Of a stretch of DNA of 43,891 nucleotides, positions 1,094 to 11,887 are shown piece after piece. The position numbers and the translations under genes are program-made. The notes under the pieces are model-generated. The model was given only the letters and a program-made list of their open reading frames with translations, was not told the origin of the DNA and did not search any database. Position 1 is the stretch's first letter. Each line of letters opens with the position of its first letter. Source of the stretch: Pyrodictiaceae archaeon (GTDB taxonomy: Archaea; Thermoproteota; Thermoprotei_A; Sulfolobales; WAQK01); NCBI GenBank assembly GCA_015520265.1, contig WAQK01000079.1, forward strand, positions 1 through 43,891. The letters are read 5' to 3'.

Positions 1094-1122
1094 GGCCTCT
1101 GACCCGCTGAAGGCTCCTCACC
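1089..1122 (+). other. Inverted repeat overlapping the mvk stop codon
   Basis: GGTGAGG (1089-1095) pairs with CCTCACC (1116-1122); CCT/AGG extension inside the stem after a small bulge. Confidence 0.4.
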
Positions 1123-1242
1123 GGCTCGGTTCAGGGGTTCTATCTTCACTGGCCTCATTATAGGGTATTGTGTCTGCTGGATAATATTTTCTTCAAGGGT
1201 GGCAATGTTAAATTTGGATAGATACAACTAGAGAAGTGTAGC

Positions 1243-5690: not shown

Positions 5691-5863
5691 TCTAAGCCCG
5701 TGGAACCGTGAGAATCCGGCGAATTCGGGCGGCTCAGGGGGCTCCTAAGTCATCAGCCTCAGGATCAGGGACCGCCACACTCCTCACAGCCGCCAGTTAC
5801 ACCAGAGTGAGATTTAGGTTTATAGTGGTTGCTGTATCCATTAAACGACTGGGTAGACTCTAC

Positions 5864-8158: not shown

Positions 8159-8297
8159 GTTGCATCTTCCTCGAAAAGGTTTTAGTGCAAGCGTATCATT
8201 TTTAAGGTATCTGTCTCTAATAACCCGTCTGGTTACAGGGAACGCCCCAAGCGAGATCCAGTAAGCCGTGGTGGTACGAAGATACAGGTGGATACTG

Positions 8298-11141
8298 ATG
8301 GAGGCCGAGACCGTTAAGCTGCTGCACCCGGTGGTGCGGATACTGGTGGCCGAGAGAGGATGGAAGGACCTAACCAATGCACAGAGGCAGGCCATACCCT
8401 ACATCGCCAGCGGCTACAACGTGCTCCTCATAGCACCCACCGGTTACGGCAAGACTGAAGCAGCCCTTCTCCCCATTCTCAGTAAAATGGTGGAAGAAAA
8501 GCCCGAACCTGTGGCCCTAATATACATAACACCCCTCAGGGCGCTCATCAACAACCTAACTGAGAGGATAAACTGGTGGGCATCGAGGCTGGGTATCAGG
8601 ACGGCAAGGAAGCATGGCGACGTCCCGCAGTCGGAGAAGGCTAAAAGACTTAGAAACGCGCCCCACATAATAATACTGACCCCTGAAAGCCTGGAAATAG
8701 ACCTCGATTGGGCCACGAGGTTCAGGGAGAAGTACAGGAACGTGAGATGGGTGATAGTGGATGAGGTCCACGAGCTGGCTTCCTCTAAGAGAGGAGTTCA
8801 GCTCTCACTGCTCCTAGAGAGGCTCCGCAGGCTTGCGTCCCACGACTTTCAGGTCATAGGGCTGTCGGCCACTGTTGAGGAGCCCCAGACCATCGCCCGC
8901 ATGCTTTTCGGCTCGTCGAGGAGGAAGTGGAAGATCATCGAAACCGACGTGGCTAAAGATCTGGAGCTCAGGGTTGAATACATAGAGGAGGATGGCCAGG
9001 ACTCCTGGAACACAGCCGCGAGGCGCGTCGTGGAGACGCTTAATCCCCCCAGCCTCATATTCGTTAACTCCAGGTTTACAGCGGAGAGGCTTCACGAGTC
9101 ACTTGAGCGGATCGGGGTATCAGACATATTTGTACACCATTCCTCCGTGTCGAGGCAGATGAGGGAGAAGGCGGAGGAGAGGCTGAAGAGGGGCGAACTG
9201 AAGGCCATAGTATGCACCAAGACGTTGGAGCTAGGCATAGACGTCGGCGAGATCAGAAGCGTCGTTCTCTTCAGGCCTCCTGGAACTGTGGCCTCCCTCC
9301 TCCAGAGGGTCGGGAGAAGCGGGCACACCGTGGACGGCAAGTCTTCGGGCGTTCTAATAAACATAGGGGTAATGGATCTCCTGGAGTCTGTGGCCCTCTC
9401 CCGCTTAGCTGCGAGGAAAAAACTAGAACCACCTCCAAGGCTCGAGAAACCCCTCGATGTCCTGGCCCGTACAATTCTGGGCATATGTCTCCAGAAGAAG
9501 GAGGCGAGCGTAGAGGAGATCTACGAGATAGCCAGATCCACGTATCATTACCGCGACCTGAAGCCCTGGGAACTCGAGAGCCTCATAGACTACCTAGCTC
9601 TTAACGAGATGATTGTAGAGTTGCCGGAGGGAAGGATAAGGCTGGGAAGGGGCTTCTACAAGATATGGAGGTTTGACAACTCGGATATGCGTTGGATGGC
9701 CCGCAGTTTCACCGAGTTCTTCTCTCTGATAAGTGAGAGGGATAGCTTCACGGTGAAGCACGGCGACAGGGTCGTGGGGGATCTCGACGTCTACTATGTT
9801 TACAGGCATCTGCGCGTGGGGGACGTTATCAGGCTTTCAGGCAGGTCGTGGAGGATAGTTGACATCGACGAAGTGTCCATGAAGGTTGAGGTGGTTCCGG
9901 CAGAAGCGGGTTCAAGCGAGGTCCCCCTATGGCGCGGCGAGGGCGTGAGGCGGAGCAGAATACTTGCAAGCGAGGTATCGTCGCTCCTCGAGGAGCTCTG
10001 GGAGGGCCGCGAAGCCTGGGTTCCCGAAAACGTCCACGTCTCGCCAAGTGCTGCCAAGAAGCTTTACGAGCTAGTGGAGTACCACAAAAGGAAAGGGATC
10101 CCATTACCGTCTACCAAGCGGCTGATAGTAGAGAGGATAGGCGATGAGGTGTTCTTCATATCTATGATGGGGCAGAATGTAGCCGAGACGCTTGCCCATA
10201 TCCTCATGCACATGATTTCGGCAAAGGACACGACGGACGTCGCTATCAGGGCCTCCTACTATGGCTTCTCGGTCAGGACGCGCAGCTCTGACCCGGTAAG
10301 GTTGCTGCTCAGCCTCGAGCCGGAGAAGGTGCCGGAACTGGCGGCTAGTGCTGCCAAGAGGTCGCCTCTGCTCTATGTGTTGGTAAAGGAACTCCAGTAC
10401 AGCTTCGGTAAGATAGGTAAGCCTGACGTGGAGAAGGACAAGTTGCTCCTGGAGGAGGCGGTTAGGCAGACTATAGCCAGTTACTTCGACATAGAGGGTG
10501 CAAAGGAGTTTGTTGAGAAGTTGAGAAGAGGGGAGATAGAAGTAGTCGAGAGGCTGGCGGGCCCACCATCACCGTTCTCGCTGGCTCTGAGAAGGATGCC
10601 CACTATACGGCCCTGGTTCAGGGACGCCACTCTGCTCATAGTGAAGAACCTGGAGGGCATGGCATATACTGTGGACGAGCTGGCCGAGATAGTGGAGCTA
10701 CCGCCGAGAACCGTTGAGAGCAAGCTGAAGGAGCTTCGAAAACCCGGCTCGCCCGCCAGGGTCTTCCAGTTCATAGACGTGTCCTTTAACGAGTGGAGGT
10801 GGGCGCTGGTAAAGGACGTGGAGACTATTGCAGGCTACGAGGAGTTCGTAGAGTCGTTTAGCCCCGAGGACGTAAATGAGGCCTTCGTCCTGATGCTGAA
10901 GCCCCTGAGCGGAGAGTCATACTACACCATACTCTTTACGCCGAAGGACATTATGAGTGACATGGAAAGGTTCGCCAGAAAGGTGCCCTACGACGAGACG
11001 TACGAGGTCAAGGTAATGCCGCTTGCCGACAACCTGTTGAAGAGCTTGGCGCCCAAGTACTACCATGTGCCGAGAAAGGTGTTGCCCTACATAGCGCTCA
11101 ACGGTGTAGCCTATATTCAGAGACTAAAGGGATACGGTTAG
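8298..11141 (+). CDS. Lhr-like ATP-dependent helicase (paralog 1)
   Basis: APTGYGKTEAALLP Walker A, VDEVHEL DEVH box, LLQRVGRSGH motif VI, Lhr-type C-terminal extension; likely ATG 8298. Confidence 0.9.
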   Translation: MEAETVKLLHPVVRILVAERGWKDLTNAQRQAIPYIASGYNVLLIAPTGYGKTEAALLPILSKMVEEKPEPVALIYITPLRALINNLTERINWWASRLGIRTARKHGDVPQSEKAKRLRNAPHIIILTPESLEIDLDWATRFREKYRNVRWVIVDEVHELASSKRGVQLSLLLERLRRLASHDFQVIGLSATVEEPQTIARMLFGSSRRKWKIIETDVAKDLELRVEYIEEDGQDSWNTAARRVVETLNPPSLIFVNSRFTAERLHESLERIGVSDIFVHHSSVSRQMREKAEERLKRGELKAIVCTKTLELGIDVGEIRSVVLFRPPGTVASLLQRVGRSGHTVDGKSSGVLINIGVMDLLESVALSRLAARKKLEPPPRLEKPLDVLARTILGICLQKKEASVEEIYEIARSTYHYRDLKPWELESLIDYLALNEMIVELPEGRIRLGRGFYKIWRFDNSDMRWMARSFTEFFSLISERDSFTVKHGDRVVGDLDVYYVYRHLRVGDVIRLSGRSWRIVDIDEVSMKVEVVPAEAGSSEVPLWRGEGVRRSRILASEVSSLLEELWEGREAWVPENVHVSPSAAKKLYELVEYHKRKGIPLPSTKRLIVERIGDEVFFISMMGQNVAETLAHILMHMISAKDTTDVAIRASYYGFSVRTRSSDPVRLLLSLEPEKVPELAASAAKRSPLLYVLVKELQYSFGKIGKPDVEKDKLLLEEAVRQTIASYFDIEGAKEFVEKLRRGEIEVVERLAGPPSPFSLALRRMPTIRPWFRDATLLIVKNLEGMAYTVDELAEIVELPPRTVESKLKELRKPGSPARVFQFIDVSFNEWRWALVKDVETIAGYEEFVESFSPEDVNEAFVLMLKPLSGESYYTILFTPKDIMSDMERFARKVPYDETYEVKVMPLADNLLKSLAPKYYHVPRKVLPYIALNGVAYIQRLKGYG

Positions 11142-11191
11142 GATAACGTAATTAGAGTTGGACCCGCCATTTTATCTGAAAACCCTCCAAA

Positions 11192-11248
11192 GTCGATGAG
11201 GAGAAGCCACGGACCGAGGGGTGAGGAGGGTCCGTGTTGCCGAGACAC
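11192..11248 (+). ncRNA. Candidate dual-guide C/D-box sRNA
   Basis: C ATGAGGA 11196-11202; guide GAAGCCACGGA; D' CCGA 11214-11217; 3-nt spacer; C' GTGAGGA 11221-11227; guide GGGTCCGTGTTG; D CCGA 11240-11243; TATA-like CATTTTATC about 25 nt upstream. Confidence 0.55.
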
Positions 11249-11251
11249 ACG

Positions 11252-11335
11252 CTCCGGGATGATGTGATCGAGGTAAATCGAAGACAGGGGTGAATGTGAG
11301 AGTTATCCCCGACTGACCGTGGAGGTGTGGAGACG
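11252..11335 (+). ncRNA. Weak candidate C/D-box sRNA adjacent to the preceding one
   Basis: C-like ATGATGT 11259-11265, D CTGA 11313-11316, CTCC...GGAG terminal pairing; C'/D' poorly matched. Confidence 0.22.
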
Positions 11336-11887
11336 TTGCCAGAAACGCGCTGGGAGACCTACGTGGAAATCGTGGCCACGGTGTCTCCCGACAAGCTCCT
11401 GGTAAGGCTCATAAGGATCCTAGGCGAGGCTGGCTACAAGCTCGTGGATGTAGATGAGGAGACCAGGAGGGTAGTGTTCAAGGCTCCTCTAAACCGCGCC
11501 GAGGAGCTGGCAGATCTGCTGGGGTGGTTCTCCTCCGGGAGCCTCGAAGTCAAGCTTGGGAGACGCATAAAAAGAGTCGATCTTAAACGTGCAGCTAGGA
11601 CACTGCGATCCAAAGGCTTCTTGGTCGAGACTTATAGAAACAGGATCCTCCTCTTCAAGGCAGGCCAGGGCTTCTCCTTCCTGGGAGAGCTTAAGCCGGG
11701 CAAGCTCCTAGGTAAATATTGTAAGGAAACGGTCTCCGCTCTCATTTCGCCCTTCGAAGTCCCACCCTCTCTATGCAGCTACAGTTTGGATGTCCTCCGA
11801 AACCCGGAGTTCCTCGAGCAGGCAGGGCTAAGATTAATGAGCCTGTATAGTGACATAGTCGAGATACTGGAAGGACTGGACACGTGA
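11327..11887 (+). CDS. Hypothetical protein (186 aa)
   Basis: Intact ORF with GTG start and GGAGGTG upstream; no family recognised. Confidence 0.65.
   Translation: METLPETRWETYVEIVATVSPDKLLVRLIRILGEAGYKLVDVDEETRRVVFKAPLNRAEELADLLGWFSSGSLEVKLGRRIKRVDLKRAARTLRSKGFLVETYRNRILLFKAGQGFSFLGELKPGKLLGKYCKETVSALISPFEVPPSLCSYSLDVLRNPEFLEQAGLRLMSLYSDIVEILEGLDT

Follow-up and report, generated by a model that had tools for sequence, protein, structure and literature searches.

Can an intergenic segment encode an ordinary box C/D dual-guide sRNA when neither of its kink-turns (k-turns) carries the consensus U.U pair, and which rRNA nucleotide would such an RNA address? The question is raised by a segment, here termed sRNA 1, in the window, i.e. 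the whole stretch of 43,891 nucleotides that was analyzed. The source assembly, that of a heat-loving archaeon, comprises 1.73 Mb in 113 contigs. sRNA 1 is located in a 185-nt intergenic gap 3' of an Lhr-type helicase gene. An earlier note on this DNA had described the arrangement ATGAGGA-11-CCGA-3-GTGAGGA-12-CCGA with a length of 48 nt, and exactly this arrangement is present at 11196-11243 (+). The features of the locus are as follows.

8268..11141, +, Lhr-type DEAD-box helicase gene, 957 aa, upstream; stop codon 54 nt 5' of box C
11196..11243, +, core of the putative box C/D sRNA 1 from C box to D box (geometry, chance test, order-wide homologs)
11196..11202, +, box C ATGAGGA (G5); G5 also present in the sister (G001) and in G002, a member of the family
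11203..11213, +, D' guide GAAGCCACGGA, 11 nt; pairs over 7 nt with LSU rRNA of relatives
11214..11217, +, box D' CCGA (C2); kept in the sister
11218..11220, +, linker GGG between D' and C'
11221..11227, +, box C' GTGAGGA (G5); kept in the sister
11228..11239, +, D guide GGGTCCGTGTTG, 12 nt; family consensus roughly RGGYYYGTGTTN, predicted target LSU rRNA AAACACGGGCC
11240..11243, +, box D CCGA (C2)
11256..11316, +, putative box C/D sRNA 2, directly downstream of sRNA 1; homologs in G001, G008, G017, G101, G019 and G112
11327..11887, +, ORF of 186 aa without Pfam match, downstream

With a 48-nt core and guides of 11 and 12 nt, sRNA 1 matches the range of archaeal C/D sRNAs (guides of 10-12 nt, about 50 nt), and the mature RNA probably spans about 11190-11249. 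In both k-turns, G3 and A4 of the C box are opposite A4 and G3 of the D box, so that tandem sheared G.A pairs are possible, and the 4b:4n pair (C6-D1) is G-C. The next position, C5/D2, is 3b:3n in k-turn nomenclature. Here, too, both k-turns have G-C and the consensus U.U is absent, as had been noticed before. The archaeal consensus RUGAUGA/CUGA is thus replaced twice by RUGAGGA/CCGA, a replacement which is common in Ignicoccus. The missing U.U does not exclude membership in the C/D class, since U.U is a preference: homologs from the family of sRNA 1 show U.U, A.A, A.G, A-U, G.U and G-C at this position. In the predicted folds the terminal stem consists of 3 pairs (GUC/GAC), and of 5 pairs (GUGUC/GGCAC) in the sister.

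The sister genome G001 (contig JALURJ010000226.1, Desulfurococcales archaeon) shares every box and both guides except for the last base of the D guide, while linker and flanks have diverged. With a sequence model built from six homologs, 97 of 149 genomes of the order gave matches at E <= 0.1; the weakest of these are not all real, and the best ones were read individually. The best homologs form a single family with the order C, D' guide with a GCCAC-like core, D', C', D guide RGGYYYGTGTTN and D. This combination of D guide and GCCAC-like D' core was found in the taxonomic families f1, f2, f3, f5, f6, f8, f9 and f10. The weak model matches L195 and L197 as well as another guide family (L165, L190, L191) were excluded from the counts. 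Judged from these homologs, the sRNA 1 family is represented in the majority of families within this order (Desulfurococcales-type archaea).

No part of the window matches an Rfam model at gathering level. Under relaxed conditions the best match is sR5 (RF01304) with 23.6 bits against a cut-off of 40 bits; other C/D families also stay below their cut-offs. The sR5 scores of the sRNA 1 locus and several homologs range from 23.6 to 38.2 bits, all below 40. sR5 has the same architecture as sRNA 1, but its consensus D guide differs. A relaxed match to the c-di-GMP-I-GGC riboswitch (18.1 versus 59 bits) was rejected as chance. sRNA 1 belongs to an order-wide guide family, probably of ordinary mechanism, which apparently lacks an Rfam model of its own.

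Two other readings of the locus have to be weighed against a C/D sRNA. The C and D boxes are short, and one might regard sRNA 1 as a chance resemblance in intergenic DNA. However, if 3b:3n is left free, the real window contains two dual C/D motifs (one of them sRNA 1) compared to 0.005 per Markov-shuffled window, and the form with G-C in both k-turns occurs once compared to none in 200 shuffles. Together with the homologs across the order this makes a chance origin practically negligible; conservation already refutes it. The other reading takes the boxes as remnants and assigns the function to a hairpin between the guides, which would terminate or regulate the helicase operon. CACGGAC (11208-11214) is indeed complementary to GTCCGTG (11230-11236), as the earlier note had pointed out, and an 8-bp hairpin dominates the predicted fold of the free RNA in both congeners. 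Nevertheless, this reading is very improbable. The predicted fold of sRNA 1 (MFE -17.6 kcal/mol, z = -1.05; sister z = -2.9) is no better than shuffles in the own species, and for homologs from two other families, which retain boxes and guides, no such hairpin was predicted. The hairpin was therefore rejected as a conserved element, being confined to the genus. The complementarity of the guides may simply reflect the near-complementary rRNA segments ACACGGGCC and GGCCGTGG. Since the geometry is hardly ever produced by shuffling and most families contain homologs that share the guides, we regard sRNA 1 as a genuine box C/D sRNA, and it is highly likely that the locus encodes an archaeal dual-guide RNA working in the ordinary way.

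Similarly, the TATA-like element CATTTTATC at 11168-11176 is present as described in the earlier note, but the flank that contains it is not conserved in the sister. An own TATA-like element is known for only about 20% of the C/D genes of archaea (PMC7994747), and thus the absence of a TATA box would not matter.

Because the own assembly has no detectable 16S or 23S rRNA gene, the targets of sRNA 1 were tested in the rRNA of relatives. In a scan of aligned rRNAs, the D guide pairs with GAAACACGGGCC around position 680 of the LSU rRNA in 10 of 10 relatives. This column is the best or second-best LSU site of the D guide in all ten comparable genomes; an eleventh, G016, is outside this count because its aligned LSU piece does not contain the region. 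The middle of the D guide varies (TCC, CTC, CCT), and all variants still pair with the site, some of them through G.U. The site itself is invariant in every LSU sequence aligned there, save one flanking base in G029. The first nucleotide of the own D guide, a G, mismatches an invariant A, with which the T of the sister pairs. The N+5 nucleotide of the D guide is the bracketed A in GAAAC[A]CGG.

The same A is known from yeast. DNAzyme arms directed at A649, the target of snoRNA U18, read CCCGUCUUGAAAC-A-CGGACC and flank this nucleotide within CCGUCUUGAAACACGG; the yeast position is our own reading of these arms (PMC3938493). Consequently, the N+5 rule would place the methyl group directed by the D guide on the same nucleotide as that of U18 (yeast snR18), i.e. 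the homolog of A649 in yeast 25S rRNA, within GAAACACGG, where methylation by sRNA 1 is a prediction. Unlike sRNA 1, U18 acts on two neighboring nucleotides and relies on an unusual C'/D' motif (PMC5389607). The likeness is restricted to the shared target, with no evidence of common descent of the RNAs. If the assignment is correct, eukaryotic U18 and an order-wide archaeal guide family share one LSU target nucleotide.

A second LSU site near position 1548 (CGTAACACGGACCC) competes for the D guide; its use would result in methylation of the bracketed A in TAAC[A]CGG. It offers 12-13 consecutive pairs with the own D guide in G028, G038, G030, G014 and G021, the first base G can form a G.U pair there, and in G028, G038 and some others it pairs somewhat better than the site near 680. 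However, the 1548 site differs between families (TAACCCGGTGCC in G029, TAACTCGGACCC in G019, TAACCGGAGTCG in G013) although the guide is kept there, in contrast to the invariant site near 680. Because this site varies while the guide does not, it was demoted, and we consider it doubtful that the real target of the D guide is located there. With the site near 680 as the preferred target, sRNA 1 very probably directs methylation of the large ribosomal RNA.

The assignment of the D' guide is less certain. The D' target GGCNGTGGCGAG is located about 20 nt downstream of the D target in the LSU rRNA. The own D' guide forms 7 pairs (GCCACGG with CCGTGGC) with the conserved LSU segment GGCCGTGGCGAG of relatives; at this homologous site the pairing comprises 10 perfect pairs for the G026 homolog and 8 in the f10 group. 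A full-length match to the 11-nt complement of the own D' guide was not found in the rRNA of the relatives. Thus, the search for rRNA matches suggested by the earlier note succeeded for the D guide and only in part for D'. Guide and target co-vary at base N: guide A (CAC-A) faces target T in G026, guide T (CAC-T) faces target A in f10, and in f8 target C faces guide G. For the long D' guides of f8, N+5 does not land on a pair. Methylation directed by the D' guide is less certain than that proposed for the D guide.

Is the G-C pair at 3b:3n a peculiarity of this locus? Among 121 k-turns of the family (15 of them read by eye), the position is T:T in 55, A:A in 20, G:C in 14, A:G in 13, A:T in 8, G:T in 6 and other combinations in 5. 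T5 is opposite T2 in 55 of 55 k-turns, and C2 is opposite G5 in 14 of 16. This association between C5 and D2 was reached in none of 5000 permutations. It holds if each pair is counted a single time within a given taxonomic family and k-turn (41 events), which removes relatedness only partly. G:C is found in f1, f2, f3, f6, f8 and f9. G-C in both k-turns of sRNA 1 is confined to the own genome and the sister among the RNAs parsed, and the sister keeps all G5 and C2 boxes.

Beyond this family, G:C is the commonest C'/D' pair in G018 (1,297,538 bp, identified as Ignicoccus hospitalis), with 10 of 21 (loci L202-L216); 5 of 12 fully read sRNAs, picked mainly for their inner boxes, have it twice. 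Examples of the double G-C form lie at 152461, 234961 and 383995 of this chromosome. In G004, from another family, U.U occurs in 16 of 23. On the evidence of these counts, the replacement of U.U by G-C is a true covariation, but one that recurs within the order and is not specific to the locus. The wider claim of the earlier note, a dual-guide C/D sRNA, gains support from the homologs, the invariant D target and this covariation. Many f8 homologs (e.g. L133, L135-L139) have A.A in the outer k-turn (ATGAAGA with CAGA), which is an uncommon C/D pair.

For the k-turn, G-C at 3b:3n has a defined consequence: Mg2+-induced folding is abolished, and L7Ae-induced folding is retained (McPhee et al., PMC4382518). 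For sRNA 1 this predicts a strict dependence on L7Ae and normal function afterwards. The A.A and A.G variants of other families are expected to behave differently in Mg2+. A comparable situation is given by the k-turns of U4 snRNA, in which 3b:3n is mostly G-C or G-U and 97% of the sequences are predicted to be unable to fold in Mg2+ (PMC4382518); the likeness to sRNA 1 concerns the G-C pair, whereas RNA and function are different.

By analogy with known C/D sRNPs, the following mechanism is proposed. An RNA of about 50-60 nt would be transcribed and would fold into two motifs, one from the paired C and D boxes and one from C' and D', and L7Ae would bind each of them as a kink-turn or k-loop. 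Following published k-turn rules, the G-C pairs would make this folding fully dependent on L7Ae and leave the function of the protein-bound form intact. Nop5 and fibrillarin would join after L7Ae. The D guide would pair with GAAACACGGGCC in the LSU rRNA, where the A located five nucleotides away from box D would be 2'-O-methylated by fibrillarin. About 20 nt downstream in this rRNA, the D' guide would pair as well and help to hold the region. Fibrillarin (PF01269) is represented in the own genome by two overlapping partial matches on two contigs (C15:18583-19014 and C93:9097-9492), which reflect either an assembly break or two copies.

An older set of archaeal C/D k-turns leans to U.U (PMC5689011). 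It is conceivable, though rather unlikely, that compensatory change has moved 3b:3n from U.U to G-C throughout the C/D sRNA set of several Desulfurococcales-type lineages, and to A.A or A.G in others, and that L7Ae or Nop5 may have adapted in parallel. Such a shift would have made sRNP assembly strictly protein-dependent or more heat-stable. Irrespective of this, one RNA with a natural series at 3b:3n (U.U, G-C, A.A, A.G, A-U and G.U) provides a test bed for k-turn rules derived in the laboratory. Knowledge of a lineage-shifted k-turn code would also be useful for annotation. The k-turn filter of SnoReport 2.0 demands uridine at the U-U position (PMC7994747) and would reject sRNA 1 and many Ignicoccus sRNAs; consequently, annotations of such genomes probably miss a share of the archaeal C/D sRNAs. 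For Ignicoccus hospitalis, 128 C/D sRNAs were described by RNA-seq (PMC4644070). sRNA 1 resembles such archaeal C/D sRNAs in length, box order, guides of 11 and 12 nt, closely spaced rRNA sites and tandem arrangement.

The tandem partner, sRNA 2, has the guides ATCGAGGTA (LSU TACCTCGAT) and GTTATCCCCG (LSU CGGGGATAAC), which are complementary to the peptidyl-transferase region. The respective N+5 positions presumably correspond to about C2498 and G2446 in E. coli numbering. For C' and D', sRNA 2 has degenerate boxes in the own genus and canonical ones in G101, G019 and G112. In f1, f8 (G101, G019) and f6 (G112), sRNA 1 is consistently followed by sRNA 2, with a spacing of no more than about 40 nt. 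Archaeal C/D genes are known to occur in groups of two or three (PMC7994747).

Two further C/D candidates were observed in the window, both on the minus strand. The candidate at 1098-1149 (-) reads GTGAAGA-TAGAACCCCTGAA-CCGA-GCCG-GTGAGGA-GCCTTCAGCGGGT-CAGA and lies in the gap after a GHMP-kinase gene; its C'/D' pair is G-C and its C/D pair A.A. The candidate at 5734-5787 (-) is antisense to the 5' end of a class II tRNA synthetase ORF. Its terminal stem (GGCGGCT...AGCCGCC) is strong, TATAAA precedes the candidate on the same strand, and a similar D' guide is found in pattern matches from G013 and G004.
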